A stretch of DNA of 64,000 nucleotides from Planctomycetota bacterium (GTDB lineage: Bacteria > Planctomycetota > Planctomycetia > Planctomycetales > Planctomycetaceae), in NCBI GenBank assembly GCA_003671275.1, contig QWPB01000033.1:1-64000 (forward strand), read 5' to 3'. The first letter of the stretch is position 1; the number at the start of each line of letters is the position of its first letter. The translations under genes were made by a program, and so were the position numbers. The notes beneath the pieces are model-generated. The model did no database searches and was not told the origin of the DNA. It saw only the letters and a program-made list of their open reading frames with translations. Below are positions 3,776 to 58,049 of this stretch, piece after piece.

Positions 3776-4219
3776 ACGTTCGGAGTGGGCCAGGCGATCG
3801 CTGTGCGGGGTAACCCGCGTGGAGGAAAGTCCGGGCTCCATAGGACACGGTGGTGGGTAACGCCCACCATCCGCAAGGGTCGGGAAAGTGCCACAGAAAA
3901 CAAACCGCCACGCAGCTTCGCAAGGAGCTTTGTGGTAAGGGTGAAAAGGTGCGGTAAGAGCGCACCGCGGTTCTGGTGACAGAACTGGCAGGGCAAACCC
4001 CACCGGGAGCAAGACCAAGCAGGGCGAAGACCGGATGGAGCCTGGGGATTGGCACGTCGAGCAAACTCGACGGCGAACAGTCCCCAGGCTCCATCCGGTC
4101 ACGGAGCGGTCCGTTCCGTTTGACGTCCGGGTCGGTCGCATCGAGCTGTGCGGGTAACCCGCAGCCCAGAGAAATGATCGCCCACGACAGAACCCGGCTT
4201 ACCGGCCCGCTCCGAATGT
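3776..4219 (+). ncRNA. rnpB: RNase P RNA, bacterial type A
   Basis: The catalytic RNA that trims tRNA 5' leaders. Conserved segments seen in order: GAGGAAAGTCCGGGCTCCATAGG (CR-I region), the ACAGAAAACAAACCGCC segment, GGTAAGGGTGAAAAGGTGCGGTAAGAGCGCACCG, GGGAGCAAGACCAAGCAGGG, and the 3' signature CCACGACAGAACCCGGCTTAC. The ends are set by the P1 helix: ACGTTCGGAGTGGGC (3776-3790) pairs with GCCCGCTCCGAATGT (4205-4219) with G-U wobbles. A 20-bp perfect arm (4029-4048 with 4081-4100) stands between the GAGCAAGACCAA segment and the P18 hairpin. Confidence 0.96.
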
Positions 4220-50283: not shown

Positions 50284-50475
50284 TCCGACGGACCGCGGTC
50301 GGGCTGCAACAGTGCCAGGATCTCTGGGACATTTCCATGGTGTTGGGTCCGCACGGTTCCTTTCCCCTTTGTTTTCTCCAAGAGTGTGTTGAACTTCATA
50401 GCCAGTGTGACCGACCATCGACCTTCGACGATCACCCTCCGGAATGGATAGTGACGGTCTGGCGAAAACCACACC

Positions 50476-50955
50476 TTAGAAAAGCACCACCGAAAAGCTC
50501 GCAGCCGCGAACGCTGCCCCGGCAAATAACAATCCACATGTGGCCATCAGCAACCAGGCGCAGACCTTGAGCTTCCATCGAAAGAAACCATGCACACGTC
50601 TGGCTGTATCACGTCCAGATCGTTTCAGCTCACGCAGGAAATGAATCTCGTCCGAGATGCAGTCGGTCGCCAAATACCGATGGGCCAATGCCCCACCGAC
50701 CGCCAGCGACAGACAGATAATGCTAACCACCAGGAACCAGCGAGCGTCCCGAAGCATTGCCAGATAGAGGGGATGCTCTTTTGACAGCACCACATCCGAA
50801 ATCAGGAATCCGATACCAGCCATTCCCAGCAGCGCCAACCGCAGTAACTCCGATGAGAACTGCTGGTATCGATCGGACAGCTCAAGGTCGGGTTTGTACT
50901 GGGCTTCGTCGACGGGCGTCTCTGCCAGCGAAGGTTGGTCAGTCGAGGTGTTCAT
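50476..50955 (-). CDS. Small multi-pass membrane protein, unknown function
   Basis: 159 residues. Three membrane segments are likely: LALLGMAGIGFLISDVVL (about 42-59), WFLVVSIICLSLAVGGALAHRY (about 73-94) and VCAWLLMATCGLLFAGAAFAAASFSVVLF (about 131-159). A charged loop between segments 2 and 3 (LRELKRSGRDTARRVHG) faces one side. No family recognised. It stands at the start of the low-GC, repeat-containing region. Confidence 0.6.
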   Translation of the reverse strand: MNTSTDQPSLAETPVDEAQYKPDLELSDRYQQFSSELLRLALLGMAGIGFLISDVVLSKEHPLYLAMLRDARWFLVVSIICLSLAVGGALAHRYLATDCISDEIHFLRELKRSGRDTARRVHGFFRWKLKVCAWLLMATCGLLFAGAAFAAASFSVVLF

Positions 50956-51052
50956 CGGAGGTTGTCTCTCGATTGCGGTTTGTCCGTCACTGCCGCATGC
51001 ACTCTATACGAAAGGTTAAAGATGCACACGATTCACGGAGTTCCGCGGGGTG

Positions 51053-51183
51053 GGAGTGCCCAGACATCGCCTTGGATGTCTGGGTTGCAGAGCAACAAGA
51101 GGGCTTGAGCAATGATCGTGTCCTCTGTCGCCTCTTGTTGTTGCACAACCCAGACGCTCAAAGCAGCGTCTGGGCCACCCCGC
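51053..51183 (-). repeat. Structured composite repeat, copy 1 (minus orientation)
   Basis: Read on the minus strand: GCGGGGTGGCC, hairpin CCCAGACGCT-GCTTTG-AGCGTCTGGG, then AACAAGAGG ... CCTCTTGTT as a long stem about 31 nt apart, then hairpin CCCAGACATC-CAAGGC-GATGTCTGGG. The second copy is at 56216 in the opposite orientation. It ends next to the cassette-like gene. Confidence 0.75.
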
Positions 51184-51252
51184 CGTTCGATTTGGGGACC
51201 GACGCCGCCGGCCCAAAACCCGACGCTTGTCTGTGTCGGGCTGAACCGCTTG

Positions 51253-52661
51253 TTAGGCGTTTCGATTCACGTTGTGTTTAGCACCATCGAATACTACTCC
51301 GCACTTCTTGCACTTGTAGTTGGAGAACACGTTGTTTCCATGCTTGAGCATCATTTTTCCCATGTCATTGATGCGTTCCTCTTCGCTACATTTCGGACAA
51401 CGAAGATAGATCTCCCCCATCTCTTGGTCGTTGCGTTGGATATCGGCGACGGAGAGTAGTTGTGACGAGAATCCTGACTGGGCTTGTTTCGCTGCCAGCT
51501 CGGCAGCTTTGCCATTGCTGGGACGTGTTTTTTGCGCCAAGGCGGCTTGCTCATTGTTATGTGCATGCTGAAGAGCCTTAATTGTGTTTCTCGTCTTTCG
51601 CAACGGTGTTGTGCAGACGAGATAGCCACCTAACGCAGTCATTGGAATCCAAATAAATATCAAATATCCGGCATACTGGATCTCAAGGGCGCCTTTATCC
51701 AAGTAGGCTACCCCGAAAAGGAAAACTACTATTCCACCGAACAGAAACATGAATAGTCCCGCGATAAACCGGAAAAGAGCAGTCTGAACTTCGGTAGGAA
51801 CTTGAAAATCATCTTTCGTCACGGAAGGAGTATGCTCATCAGCCAACGGCGTAGACCGAATCGGAGCCAGTCCCGCTTTCGAGTTTTTCTTTGAACCACG
51901 TTCTGCGATCAAGCCGTGCGCGTCAGTCAAATCTGCCGTTGGGTCATCGAAAGAATCAAAGCCCTGAAATGATTCCACCCCTCGCTCGACAAGGTTCGCG
52001 AAGAAAGTGTCTATGCTCGCATTCGGGATCACGTAGATCTTCTTCGAAAAACTGATGATGTTCGCATCGGCCATCTGAGTGCTGAAGTAGAGACCATGGT
52101 TAAGGAACTTCTGGGAGGTGGTATCGTTCGCGGAGTTTACTACGACGTGATACTGGGAAAAGAAATCGCCTGGAGGGAAGGTGATTGCCGGATGCCGAAG
52201 CGGCATGAGCGGCTTGCCTTCAAACTGTGGAGAGGCAATGGGGAGTGGCATGACAGCCGAAACGATTCGGAGCGGAACGTCCCCCACTTTGACATTCACC
52301 CAACTGTGAATGCGAAGTGACGTGAGAAGCGTCTTGAGTAGTTCTTGGTCTTTGATCCCGAAGGCATCGCACCGTTCCGGAACGAATAGGGTCGTGGCGT
52401 CCCATTCTTTTTGTGGAGTACCTGTAAACCTTCGCGAAGAGCGGTTCGCTTTGTCGATGGAAGTGTGGTTGTTGGCTTGGTCTTTTGTGTATCAAAGAGC
52501 TGGTCCTGCGTTTGTTTGTTCGACTGGAGACCAGACGCAGGCTTCGCAGCCGGAAGTAAGACGATTTGCCCGCAGCCAGGGCACTTGACCCGCTTGCCAG
52601 CCAGTTCATCCTTGGCTCTGATATTCTTGGAGCAACTAGGGCACTGAACACTGATCGACAT
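51253..52661 (-). pseudogene. Zinc-ribbon membrane protein of a cassette-like unit, split by a -1 frameshift
   Basis: Two frames that belong together. Frame 1 from ATG 52661 (AGGAAGG upstream) encodes a zinc ribbon SVQCPSCSKNIRAKDELAGK...CPGCGQIVLLP and a linker to ALREGLQVLHKK. Frame 2 (to 51253) continues EWDATTLFVPERCDAFGIKD...LLKTLLTSLRIHSWVNVKVG, a globular part, a two-helix membrane region and a second Cys-rich end (YLRCPKCSEEERI ... YKCKKCGVVFDG). Frame 2 has no start codon before GTG 52299 that includes this conserved-looking stretch. One extra A in the A-run (52408-52412) would give one ~470-residue protein. GC is lower than around. GTTAGGC lies 18 nt before the start and again over the stop codon. 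Confidence 0.7.
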
Positions 52662-52678
52662 CGACGCCTTCCTCTGCC

Positions 52679-52728
52679 GCCTAACGCGGGGTGGCCCCGG
52701 TTGCCGCTTTGAGCTACCGGGGCGGCGG
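52679..52728 (+). repeat. Cassette-edge hairpin sharing the GCGGGGTGGCC head
   Basis: GCCTAAC (52679-52685), then GCGGGGTGGCC (52686-52696) as in the two composite repeats, then a hairpin whose stem is CCCCGGT/ACCGGGG around a CGCTTTGAGC loop. The loop GCTTTGAG is the same as in composite repeat copy 1, while stem bases differ in a paired way. Confidence 0.6.
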
Positions 52729-52878
52729 AGCCGAAAGAGGTCATTCCTGAAGGAATTTACCTTGGAATTCCTCTTGTGCCAAGGCACACCGGTAGGCTGC
52801 AAAGCCAGCCAACCGGTGCCACCCAGCGAAAGACTGTCGTCCGCCTGTTCCGGTGAAAGTCCGTCACACAAAAGACTT

Positions 52879-54819
52879 CTACTCGCGGGCGACGTTGTAA
52901 CAGTACAGCACGTCCTGATCGCGGATGTATAGCTTGCCGATGGCGATGATGGGATGAGCCCAGGCTGGGGCTGAGCTGCGGTCCGGTTGTTGGAAGCGGC
53001 CATGCACGATCAGCTTTTCTCGGGAGGGTTCGATCAGCAACATTTCCCCATTCTCGGCACGAAGATAGAGGCGTCCATCGGCCATCAAGAGCGCTCCCTT
53101 GGGAGCATTGCGGTCTCTCCAGAGAACGTCACCTGTCTGAAAATCCATGCAGGTCAGGAAGCCCCCCTCGTTGCCACCATTGGCTCCGAACAAGGCACCG
53201 TCAACGACGATCATGCCGCCGTGATGATTCTGCATGTTCGTCGAGAAGTAGACCTCCTCTGCTTTGATTTCACCGCCGGCTTGCTTGACCAGCTTCACAG
53301 CGCCACCGCCGTTCCCGTAGGCAGAAGCCGCGAAAACGAGGCCATCTTGGAAAATCGGCGTTGAGCAGTTGATGCCCATTCTGTTGGCTGCACGATCGTA
53401 TTGCCACAGCCGCTTGCCGTCCTTCGCCGCAACGCCAATCAGCGAACTGGAGGTCAATTGCACGTATTGCCGTTGTCCTTCAAAGTCGATCGGAATGGCC
53501 GACGAGTACGCAGCTCCGGATCGCGCCCCACCAAATCCGCCGAAGCCACCGGGACGACCGCCGCGGCCCCCCGGTGCTCCCCCGCCGAAGTTGAAGAAGC
53601 CGGGGCTGGTTTGGCCTCCCACGAAACCCTGCTCGGCCATCCAGACGTGGCCGTCGGAATCCGTAAACGGCGTCGCCTGCCCGGCCTTGATACGGATGGT
53701 GTCGGCTTCCTTGGCATCGGGGGCCTGGGGAATGATCTCGATTGCTTTAATCGCCGGGCTATTGGTCTTGGGGGTAAAGCTGATGTCCAGTTTTCCATCC
53801 GTGACTTCGACCGACACGGATTCGATGTACGCCTTATTCGGTCCGTCGGCCTTTAGCCAGATGTCGAAATCCTTAAACTCTTGCCCTTCGACATCGAACG
53901 AGAAGACTCGCCCACCGGGACCGGTAATCCCAGAGAAGGTTTCTGCAAAGTGCAGCTTTGCCAGGTACTTTCCATTGGGGACTTTGTGCGAGAACGCTGT
54001 CATCCCATAATGTTCGGCGAGGAAGAGAGCCGAATCTTTGGTCCCTGTAATCTGCGGTGCCCCGCCGTTGCCTGCTGGGCGATTGGCTGTTCCTCTTGGC
54101 GCGGGCTGCTCGGTTCGGTTCTGTCCCCCAGCTGCGTCAGTCGCCGGGCGGCGGGGGCCTTCGGTGGCTGGCTGGCCAGATGCAGCGGGCACCTGGCTCT
54201 TCCAAACCGTCTCACCCGTGAGCTTATTGAGCGCGACGATCAATGTCTCGGGGCCACCGGGAGTACAGATGACCAGATCTCCATCAACCAGCGGAGACTC
54301 ACGATAGCTCCACATGGGCAAGACCCCGCCGAAGTCCTTGGTGAGACTTCTTTCCCAGACGAGTTTGCCGTCTTGAGCATTCAGGGCTGCCACACGACCG
54401 CCCACGCCGATGACGTAGAGCCGCTCACCATCAACGGTCGGTGTGCAGGCGGGGCCTTCCTTCGACTGGGGCACGTTCTGCTCAACCGCAGCACCCAGTT
54501 TTGTCGCCCAGATTTCTTTTCCATCCGCTTCAGAGCGGGCCCAGACAATCTCTTGGCCGTCGCGGTTGCTCATGCCGAAGAGTTTTCCAGCGACCACAGC
54601 GGGCGCGCTGTCGCCACCACCCAACCCATTAACTCGCCACGCCACCGGCGGACCATTCTCGGGCCAAGCCTGGAGCAGGCCCTGTTCCTGCGAAATCGCG
54701 TTTCGATTCGGCCCTTGCCAATGCGGCCAATCAGCGGACGATGCCACTGGGCTCCAGAAGCAATGAACAGCTAACAACATGGCCCACGAGAACGTGCGGG
54801 AAAATGTGAGGTGTGACAT
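52879..54819 (-). CDS. Secreted PQQ-like beta-propeller protein with inserted malectin domain
   Basis: 646 residues. Signal peptide ([19 protein letters not shown]), then PQQ-type propeller blades ([58 protein letters not shown]). After a Thr/Pro/Arg-rich linker, about residues 255-375 form a malectin-like carbohydrate-binding domain ([42 protein letters not shown]), then a Gly-rich linker, and the propeller resumes ([20 protein letters not shown] to [13 protein letters not shown]). The insertion splits the propeller. ATG 54819 gives the signal peptide. Divergent from an AraC regulator, which may control it. Confidence 0.88.
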
Positions 54820-54883
54820 TCTTAGTCTCTGATTCCAGAACCGTGCCAGCCGGTTCGCTGCGGATTCCAACATTCCAGCGCGG

Positions 54884-55013
54884 TTTGAGTCTATCTGAAA
54901 CAGACTTCTTTTACCTGTACTGATTCACCAGACTTCTTGCCTAAATCTATTTCAACAGGCTCACAAGTAGCGTTCCCTTGGCAGTATGCTAGCCTGAATC
55001 TACTCAAAGAGAA
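54884..55013. promoter_or_regulatory. Divergent promoter region with direct and inverted repeats
   Basis: CAGACTTCTT occurs twice in the same direction (54901-54910 and 54929-54938), 28 nt apart, close to the spacing of AraC-type operator half-sites. TTTGAGT (54884-54890) and ACTCAAA (about 55002-55008) form a flanking inverted pair. It lies between the PQQ/malectin gene and the AraC gene. Confidence 0.45.
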
Positions 55014-55031
55014 GTGACGGGAGCGGCGGAG

Positions 55032-55946
55032 ATGCATGACCAGAACGGAAGTCGCGAACGTGTTGAGGAGCTTCTCAACGCAGTGTCTGCCGCAGAGGGA
55101 ATCCACCCGACACTCATCGAAGGTGTGGGAGTCGCTCGACATACCAGTTCTCAGCCCCGCATTTCCGTCGTGTATGAACCCGTCATTGTCTTTGTGGGAA
55201 AAGGGAGCAAACGAAGTTATCTGGGTGGACAGGTCTACACCTACGACCCCTCGACCTATTTCGTGTTGACGGTTCCTCTCCCAGCGGAGTGCGAGTGGGA
55301 GGCCACGCCAGAGAATCCCGTCCTCGTACTTGGTGTGAAAATCGACACGACGATCCTCGGAGAAGTCGTCATGGCGATGGACGAACCAATGCCGCCGCTC
55401 GGACAAACGCCCTGCGCCATGACTGTCAATTCCCTGAGTGATCAACTCAGATGTGCCGTAATTCGGCTTCTGGAGTGCTTGAACTCTCCGCTGGATAGCC
55501 GAGTCTTGGGACGCCAGATCGTCCGTGAAATCGTCTATCGAGTTCTCTGCGAAGAGCAAGACGGTGCGATCCGTGCGCTCGCCTACAAGAGCGGTCACTT
55601 CGTGCGTATCGCTCGAGTTTTGAAAGAGGTTCACAGCGACCCTACTAACCCGTTGACCATCGGGAGCATGTCGAGACGGGCAGGGATGAGCGTTGCGGCC
55701 TTCCACAACCACTTCAAACTGATCACAGGTAGCTCACCGCTGCAGTACGTCAAACGAATCCGACTCGACCGAGCCAAGCGATTGATGATCCACGATGGCT
55801 GCAATGCCAGCACGGCTGCCAGGGCCGTCGGGTACGAAAGTGCTTCGCAATTCAGTCGAGAGTACAAGCGCCAATTCGGCGTGACACCGACGGAGAGCGT
55901 GGAGCGTCTGCGAGAATTCGGCAAGGGCAATCTTACCCGCCGTTGA
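55032..55946 (+). CDS. AraC family transcriptional regulator
   Basis: 304 residues. An N-terminal AraC_N (PF06719-type) cupin-like sensor region (VYEPVIVFVGKGSKRSYLGG ... YFVLTVPLPAECEWEA) and a C-terminal double helix-turn-helix: IGSMSRRAGMSVAAFHNHFKLITGSSPLQYVKRIRLDRAKRLM then ARAVGYESASQFSREYKRQFGVTP. A GTG at 55014 would add six residues; ATG 55032 has GGAGCGGCGGAG before it. Likely controls the divergent PQQ/malectin gene (inference from position). Confidence 0.9.
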   Translation: MHDQNGSRERVEELLNAVSAAEGIHPTLIEGVGVARHTSSQPRISVVYEPVIVFVGKGSKRSYLGGQVYTYDPSTYFVLTVPLPAECEWEATPENPVLVLGVKIDTTILGEVVMAMDEPMPPLGQTPCAMTVNSLSDQLRCAVIRLLECLNSPLDSRVLGRQIVREIVYRVLCEEQDGAIRALAYKSGHFVRIARVLKEVHSDPTNPLTIGSMSRRAGMSVAAFHNHFKLITGSSPLQYVKRIRLDRAKRLMIHDGCNASTAARAVGYESASQFSREYKRQFGVTPTESVERLREFGKGNLTRR

Positions 55947-56215
55947 TAAACCTGCGACGAACGGTATGGACGTGTCAGTCCGCGATCCTGCTTAAACACG
56001 CGAAGGCGGACATGTTGAAGCCATTGAAAAGAACGCGGGGGAGTTGCGGGCCAGCTGCTCCCCCGCGTCTTGTTGCCCGTTGGGAGTTGAGATCAACCTA
56101 TCCGCAGGCGGGCGGGATTTCCAGTGAAACTCGCCCGGCAAGGTTGAGGTTGGATCAGGATGCCTTGGCAGCGGCGTTCAGTGTGAACTGTCCCCGGTCG
56201 GCCTTAACGAACCGG

Positions 56216-56347
56216 GCGGGGTGGCCCGGACGCTGCTTGGAGCGTCTGGGTTGTGAAACAACAAGAGGCTACTGGCAGTACGCTCGCCTTCCCATTCCTC
56301 TTGTTCCTGCATCAACCAGACATCTCAAGCGATGTCCGGGTGGCCTG
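56216..56347 (+). repeat. Structured composite repeat, copy 2 (plus orientation)
   Basis: GCGGGGTGGCC, hairpin CCCGGACGCT-GCTTGG-AGCGTCTGGG, then AACAAGAGG ... CCTCTTGTT, then CCAGACATC-TCAAGC-GATGTCCGG and GGTGGCC. Same order and spacing as the copy at 51053-51183, inverted. The 468-nt stretch 55947-56414 holds no other gene. Confidence 0.75.
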
Positions 56348-56414
56348 ATCCCGTGTTCTGATCCATGTGGTCTGGGAGTGCCCCCCCGAGAGGAACGCCG
56401 AATTGCTCCGCTGT

Positions 56415-58049
56415 TCACGGCGTACGCGTGACCGTTGGGGAGGATCGCTCGTAGAGCCGCAGGTCGAGTTGAAATGGGACGGGGTGAGCCTCGCGGAAGG
56501 GCCAGTGCTGCTGCATTGTCCAGTCGACCGGGGGGCATGTCTGATCGTCCGCAAAGACTCCGGTCGCCAGATTGTCCGCCACCACCCACAGACGCCGGGC
56601 GGAGGCCAGTGCCGGGTCCTGAAACTTGATCCGTTCGTGAGCGAAGATCACCGCTGACCCCTGATGGTGTTTCAGCGGTTGGCTGTTGTCCCATTGATAG
56701 AGATTCATCCGGTGGCCCAGGCCGTGCTGTATCGTCAGGTAAACAAACGGGCTTTGCACCAGCACCAGATCGGCGGGTTGTCCCGCCTGTTGCAGGCAGG
56801 CGAGGGCCTGGGTGATTCCCGATTCTCGGGCGAGTTCGGTTCTGCGGGCGTGGTAATGGCCAGCCCAGAAGATCCCCCAGGCCAGAATCAGCGCACCGGG
56901 CCTCGATAGCCCCAGCCATCGCACCCCAGTCGCGCCAGGAAGCCCCCACCGACACGCGATCGCCACTACAAAAAACAGATGGGCAAAGCACCAGTAACGA
57001 GGCTGCAGAATGTTCCGCCCGGTGAGACTCAGTCCCGTGCTGATGACGATCGGCCCAACGATCAGCGTCAGCAGCAGAGCGATCACATCCCAGGGTCGTG
57101 AGCGGTCCCATCGCCTCCACAGAAGGAGACTGCCCATCAGCAGTCCCGTCAGGCAGGCCAGCCCGATGAGACTCTCGGCGGAGAGATCCTGAATGGCGAA
57201 TCCCGAGACCCAGCCCGCCAGCCCCATGAAAACATCCTGTCGTGCCCAGGGAGCGATCCAATAGTCCTCTTGAACCCGTTCCCGCTGTGCCAGAAACGTG
57301 GGCCCCCACCAAACGATTACCTGCCCGCTAAACCAGAGTGCCAACACCCATCGAATGACAAGCGATCGACGCCACGTTGGCTCCTGCCACCACGCCCGAA
57401 CACTGATCCCCCCGACAGCGATCACGGCCACCAGAGCTGTCAACAACCCATAGTAATGCGTCAGCACCAGCCCGTTGCCACACAAGATCACCAGGCCCCA
57501 CGCTCCCAGAGACCGAGGGTTCATCAGCAGCTGGACCAGCCCGATTCCCAGCCCCGCAGTCAGTGCGAGCCCCAGCGCATACATGCGGGCTTGCTGCGAT
57601 TGCTCCAGGGCGATTGGATGCACGGTGTACAGCGCTGCCGCTGTCCAACTGGCCCAGAGACTGTGGATGTGGACTTCCGTTGTCCGCGATCGATCGCGGG
57701 AGGATTCGACCGCGATGACCACTTCCCGGGCCAGTCGTCCGACCAGTCCCACCGTGACCAGTCCCAGCAGGACGCTCAACGATCGCAGGGCAGCTGGCGA
57801 ATCACCCCAGAGTTCACTCCAGCCTTTCAGCAATAGATAGTAGCCCGGTGGATGCACATTCGCGGCGATGGACTGCATCATCAGCCAGCCGGGCAGGCTG
57901 ACGGTTTTCCATGCGGCGGCTTCGTCGTACCACAAGGTGACTGCGGACAGCTGGTCCAGCCGCAGCAGCAGGGCGACCAGTCCGAGCCCTCCCCACAGCC
58001 AGACACCAGGGGGGCGCGGCGATGCATCGGGCCGCGCGTTAGAACTCAT
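56415..58049 (-). CDS. Multi-pass glycosyltransferase, ArnT/GT39 (PMT_2)-like
   Basis: 544 residues with about 10-12 membrane segments. The first outer loop LWYDEAAAWKTVSLPGWL and HPPGYYLLLKGW give the GT-C fold DE and HPPG motifs. Such enzymes use polyprenyl-phosphate sugars and act outside the cytoplasm. The start overlaps the DUF1559 stop by 11 nt; third gene of the GYF-DUF1559 operon. Substrate (lipid A, protein or pilin glycan) unknown; the pairing with a pseudopilin makes pilin glycosylation conceivable. Confidence 0.85.
   Translation of the reverse strand: MSSNARPDASPRPPGVWLWGGLGLVALLLRLDQLSAVTLWYDEAAAWKTVSLPGWLMMQSIAANVHPPGYYLLLKGWSELWGDSPAALRSLSVLLGLVTVGLVGRLAREVVIAVESSRDRSRTTEVHIHSLWASWTAAALYTVHPIALEQSQQARMYALGLALTAGLGIGLVQLLMNPRSLGAWGLVILCGNGLVLTHYYGLLTALVAVIAVGGISVRAWWQEPTWRRSLVIRWVLALWFSGQVIVWWGPTFLAQRERVQEDYWIAPWARQDVFMGLAGWVSGFAIQDLSAESLIGLACLTGLLMGSLLLWRRWDRSRPWDVIALLLTLIVGPIVISTGLSLTGRNILQPRYWCFAHLFFVVAIACRWGLPGATGVRWLGLSRPGALILAWGIFWAGHYHARRTELARESGITQALACLQQAGQPADLVLVQSPFVYLTIQHGLGHRMNLYQWDNSQPLKHHQGSAVIFAHERIKFQDPALASARRLWVVADNLATGVFADDQTCPPVDWTMQQHWPFREAHPVPFQLDLRLYERSSPTVTRTP

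Follow-up and report, generated by a model that had tools for sequence, protein, structure and literature searches.

The window, a stretch of 64,000 nt from a contig of a Planctomycetota bacterium (QWPB01000033.1, positions 1 to 64,000), contains a dispersed repeat of ∼143 bp at 52686-52828 (plus strand), next to an orphan gene. This gene (51253-52661, minus strand, start at 52661) was found in one of 170 genomes, its own. Within it a zinc-ribbon-like frame of 121 amino acids (52296-52661) runs into a frame of 348 amino acids, the ends overlapping; this may represent a pair of coupled genes, or a single gene whose frame is interrupted, possibly around the T-run at 52408-52412. A search of 169 other genomes of the family found no relative of the 348-amino acid part, which also had no Pfam match. 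The gene is preceded by GTTAGGC (52685-52679, minus strand), which touches the repeat, and is followed by an attC-like 5′ half, GCCTAACAAGCGGTTCA (51258-51242, minus strand), and then by another copy of the repeat; the arrangement resembles a solitary remnant of an integron cassette between two REP doublets. The three copies in the window, at 51045-51183 (copy A, minus strand), 52686-52828 and 56216-56345 (copy C, plus strand), all sit between ORFs taken as genes (3 of 3, counting window copies only), those around copy C being convergent. The sole Rfam match in the window is a bacterial RNase P RNA of class A at 3782-4217 (plus strand, 286.5 bits).

The earlier note had described, at 52686, an 11-mer followed by a hairpin with the stem CCCCGGT/ACCGGGG. 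Both are real, but the hairpin (52686-52723) was under-called, being the left end of a doublet of two mirror-image hairpin units whose second hairpin lies at 52786-52827. The left unit begins with the head GCGGGGTGG (52686-52694, plus strand), in which the GT(A/G)G motif is present at the foot of the hairpin as GTGG (52691-52694), directly 5′ of the stem. The main hairpin, CCCCGGTTGCC-GCTTTG-AGCTACCGGGG (52695-52722, plus strand), consists of the CCCCGGT/ACCGGGG stem, a T.T mismatch and two more pairs, and in this copy the loop-adjacent C stands opposite an A. The loop is, as had been claimed, the same as in the first copy noted, but it is the hexamer GCTTTG; the AG that had been added to it belongs to the 3′ side of the stem in that first copy (AGCGTCTGGG), and is partly stem in the copy at 52686 too. 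A small second hairpin, CGGCGGAGCCG, and an AAAGAGG box complete the left half-unit (52723-52740, plus strand). The plan of a half-unit is a GTGG head, a main hairpin with a GCTTTG loop, a small second hairpin and an AAGAGG box.

The right half-unit is inverted, its hairpin being GCTGGGTGGCACCGGTTGGCTG-GCTTTG-CAGCCTACCGGTGT (52786-52827, minus strand; 37.6 bits with the covariance model R1, described below). Read on the plus strand it runs CCTCTTG, a small hairpin around GTGCCAAGGCAC, the hairpin CACCGGTAGGCTG-CAAAGC-CAGCCAACCGGTG and then CCACCCAGC. The two half-units face each other across a spacer of ∼30-40 nt, with their heads outward. When window positions 50400-56600 were searched as DNA against two genomes of the same genus (G001 and G002) and one of the same family (G003), almost solely repeats were matched. 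The full-length matches in G001 and G002 start at 52681-52689 and stop at 52822-52829, with unmatched flanks, which sets the bounds of the element at about 52686-52828; GCCTAAC (52679-52685) lies outside it. The DNA fold of 52684-52829 (146 nt) scores −47.4 kcal/mol, where shuffled sequences average −26.4 (z −7.1); none of 200 shuffles reached the observed value.

The 11-mer GCGGGGTGGCC occurs exactly at 52686-52696 and 56216-56226 on the plus strand and at 51173-51183 on the minus strand. In the window alone, its count with one mismatch allowed does not exceed chance expectation (5 matches; shuffles average 3.65, and 31 of 100 reach 5), so the case for the repeat is made by its family across the genome. 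In the whole genome (5.03 Mb in 198 contigs) there are 35 exact copies, and 8 of the reversed-word control. The covariance model R1, built from nine units and comprising 38 positions and 11 pairs, found at least 54 units at E≤0.01 and at least 74 at E≤1, dispersed over many contigs and carrying alternative paired stems; these counts are lower bounds, as scoring covered 150 of the ∼1500 first-look candidates. The possibility that the 11-mer is a common unrelated word whose hairpin does not recur is refuted by this family. G001 and G002, each 66-71% complete, have 17 and 22 units at E≤0.01, respectively. A pattern scan of the named genomes for type-I units found none.

Five strong R1 units in the window, together with a sixth at E 0.02, account for both arms of three doublets. 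The copy at 52686-52828, with the left unit at 52686-52723, is complete and REPIN-like, with type II stems, and copies A and C carry the sister stem type I. Copy A has the stems AGACGCT and AGACATC, R1 matches at 51148-51183 (minus strand, 42.7 bits) and 51045-51086 (plus strand, 26.4 bits), and a fold with a z of −6.7. In copy C (56216-56252, plus strand, 43.7 bits; 56316-56339, minus strand, 17.2 bits) the right arm is weak and the whole-element fold reaches a z of −2.5 only. Copies A and C share a 58-nt inverted repeat at 93%. Paired arrangement holds across the genome: among the 74 units there are 26 pairs of adjacent units less than 300 nt apart, 20 of them head-outward, 6 on the same strand and none tail-outward, and 18 of the 20 head-outward doublets span 125-147 bp. 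On contig C79 (13179-16619) three doublets of 132, 198 and 142 bp are clustered within 3.5 kb.

The earlier note had also linked the repeat to the boundary of a cassette-like gene, and this link did not survive. The edge word CTAACGCGGGGTGGCC, searched with up to 2 mismatches, is exact at the 52686 copy only, and the other five matches carry other letters, the CTAAC word being absent at the other copies. The attC-like half GCCTAACAAGCGGTTCA has one exact site in the genome, and with up to 3 mismatches it has 11 matches against 33 for the reversed control, which is no excess. No integron integrase (TIGR02249) scored above the cut-off anywhere in the genome, the best hit reaching 74.6 of 265 bits. 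The reading of the doublet as an integron attC remnant or a cassette boundary signal draws on the GTTAGGC that touches the element and on the GCCTAACAAGCGGTTCA at the other end of the gene; given these searches, and a repeat family that is structured differently, we regard it as scarcely credible. The contact of the doublet with the neighbouring gene looks incidental, and it is unlikely that the two flanking doublets carried the gene at 51253-52661 in as a passenger.

To the claim that a kept head and loop with re-paired stems mark a selected fold the family gives a clear answer. The head is nearly invariant and the loop GCTTTG is constant (variants GCTTGG and GCATTG), but the stems differ among units: AGACGCT, AGACATC, CCGGTTGCC, CCGGTTGATTC, ACAGGTTGCC and others. 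Seventy units were aligned to R1, giving 65 distinct rows, in an alignment fitted to the structure, which biases the counts towards pairing. Among the distinct units, 92.0% of stem cells are paired against a mean of 72.0% with the 3′ letters reshuffled; 10 of the 11 stem pairs change on both sides; double-change cells number 136 against 46.8 in shuffles; and the covariation is 0.515, as opposed to 0.195 after shuffling and no more than 0.056 with slid partners. Of the 70 units, 61 carry an AAGAGG-like box no more than 32 nt further on; in 39 of these 61 the box is directly adjoined by a perfectly paired mini-hairpin of 4 bp or longer, for which shuffling predicts 3.3. The mini-hairpin is likewise re-paired (GGC/GCC, GTTGC/GCAAC, GTTGT/ACAAC, TGTGCC/GGCACA). 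The fold is clearly under selection and the re-pairing of the stems is real, the margin being large despite the structure-fitted alignment.

A selected fold could also be that of an RNA. The doublet lies ∼25 nt upstream of the start codon at 52661 and would be in the leader of that minus-strand gene, where, given its deep fold, it might be kept as a structured RNA or a terminator/attenuator. However, no Rfam family matches the doublet, no T-run directly follows the hairpins, and the copies lie on many contigs in varied contexts, including between convergent ORFs. This explanation, which also leaves the heads-outward pairing and the bracketing of transposase genes described below unaccounted for, is very unlikely.

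Proteins with a Y1_Tnp domain are encoded at three places in the window's genome (contigs C39, C192 and C173) and fall into two clades. The C173 protein belongs to clade I, alongside genes from G017, G027 and G036: it is 49-53% identical to those at loci L105, L110, L117 and L123, and ∼29-31% identical to the other RAYT clade. The C173 (100.5 bits), C39, G027 and G003 proteins are above the cut-off of NF047646 (REP_Tyr_transpos), 4 of the 5 tested, whereas the C192 fragment, at 60.7, falls short of the cut-off of 80; the same proteins are below the cut-off of NF033573 (transpos_IS200). The C173 frame retains the HVH, WQ and YMHLNP motifs but lacks an obvious start where the conserved N-terminus lies. 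A search of 170 genomes of the order detected clade-I RAYT genes in 52 (E≤1e-20). G002 and G003 have RAYT fragments with stops only, and in G001, which is 66-71% complete, none was found at this threshold. Most known REP systems are proteobacterial; the GTGG-headed family and its transposase clade span a planctomycete order.

In relatives, inverted half-units bracket the RAYT gene, as seen in G036 (L110 and L117) and G027 (L123); at L117, GGATGGCCCGGACACTTGCTGTCCGGGTTGCGAAGCAACAAGAGGG precedes the gene and its mirror image follows it. At L123, half-unit tandem arrays with a period of ∼62 nt (1263-1480 and 2013-2320) flank the gene on both sides. Thirty clade-I loci were scored by a script for a hairpin with the head GT(A/G)(G/C) in the right orientation, misses being kept in. 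Of the 30 loci, 17 had a unit upstream, 20 had one downstream and 14 had both, and a unit with a box was present upstream in 11 and downstream in 14; control segments elsewhere in those loci gave a unit in 5 of 202 and a unit with a box in 0 of 202. In 16 loci the script detected no unit upstream, downstream or both. It misses degenerate heads, as at L183 (in the twin of this locus, L209, the head reads GATGG), which makes the counts conservative, and some flanks end at contig ends. A scan of the named genomes with RAYT proteins gave further loci, of which L209, L210 and L212 apparently come from the genomes already represented by L183, L175 and L117, respectively, and were not counted as independent.

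The window's own genome has one clade-I RAYT, that of C173, flanked by degenerate units of this same repeat. Its downstream flank contains an exact 21-nt half-unit tail, GGGTGACGAAGGAACAAGAGG, common to the C79 copy, and its upstream flank matches the type-II head and stem without gaps at 22 of 25 positions; each match was reached by 0 of 500 shuffles.

A further reading is that of a MITE moved by a DDE transposase, with GCGGGGTGG/CCACCCCGC as terminal inverted repeats. The inverted ends, the length of ∼143 bp and the moderate copy number would suit such an element, but no target-site duplication was seen by eye in the flanks of the copies, and the half-units bracket Y1 (HUH) transposases instead. 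We give this possibility very little weight.

Very probably, then, the element at 52686-52828 is a REPIN/BIME-like REP doublet, non-autonomous and dispersed through the action of a RAYT of the HUH/Y1 type. As inverted half-units bracket RAYT genes in relatives, the doublet looks like a gene-less RAYT element, that is, a bracketed element in which a short spacer would have replaced the gene. TnpAREP is described as recognizing a folded single strand by a tetranucleotide and the stem, which it cuts and rejoins, and this activity is presumed to be what spreads REPs or their inverted doublets (PMC8266576, PMC2817692, PMC6006769). By analogy with the E. coli enzyme, the planctomycete RAYT would recognize the folded strand through GTGG and the stem, and its cutting and rejoining would spread doublets into intergenic DNA; the stems would stay paired because folded copies alone would be substrates. 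Any effects on the neighbouring gene would probably be by-products. The comparison with G001-G003 revealed neither an empty site nor a transposition event, the same-genus flanks being too diverged to provide an orthologous flank. Present-day mobility is doubtful, since the C173 gene has no evident start and G002 and G003 retain only fragments with stops. The window's genome provides a case of doublets that outlast an almost lost transposase.

The family is of the already known REP/REPIN kind. The GT(A/G)G head is given as a REP hallmark (PMC2817692), and REP families with alternative complementary stems, GTGG heads and inverted dimers 20-100 bp apart are published, as are REPs in Planctomycetes, including several families in R. 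baltica (PMC3733652). Features in common with REP/REPIN/BIME and RAYT (TnpAREP) systems (PMC2817692, PMC3733652, PMC6006769) are an imperfect palindrome immediately preceded by GTGG, sub-families whose stems differ but remain complementary, doublets of inverted units at spacings of 20-100 bp, several types of REP within a genome, and inverted REPs around the RAYT gene. The window family differs in its longer half-unit with a re-paired small second hairpin and an AAGAGG box, in a GCTTTG loop that is conserved in the genus, in having GTGG rather than GTAG, and in numbering a few dozen doublets with a nearly lost cognate RAYT. The two-hairpin half-unit is possibly distinctive. With IS200/IS605 elements it shares the HUH/Y1 transposase superfamily and subterminal hairpins; unlike them, its repeats are dispersed without a gene, and its RAYTs fall on the REP side of the two protein models. 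The GTAG repeats of R. baltica and other PVC bacteria (PMC3733652) are alike in being REPs of Planctomycetes, a comparison drawn from their description in the text. The available text of the literature on REP/RAYT in Planctomycetota, R. baltica palindromic repeats and RAYT/REPIN systems leaves this family undescribed.

Clade-I planctomycete RAYTs might use a composite REP, in which the GTGG hairpin, the small second hairpin and the AAGAGG box form a fixed two-part recognition module; we offer this tentatively, as somewhat less probable than its contrary. Such a module would be unlike the single-hairpin REPs characterized so far, and the RAYT/unit pairs make a compact set for testing which hairpin parts are read by the enzyme.

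The other RAYT clade of this genome comprises the C39 and C192 genes (C39:4051-4290 and C192:23906-24130; L039 and L038), with GGGTGCC-headed repeats in their flanks. The C39 RAYT, which has units of the window family ∼700 nt away, was considered as a partner and rejected, as its own flanks are of the GGGTGCC type and it falls in the other clade. Cross-mobilization by this clade may nevertheless occur, since its genes lie near units with the same loop. The C192 gene, which has an internal TGA, is bracketed by inverted GGGTGCC-type units with a GCTTTG loop, as in the window family.
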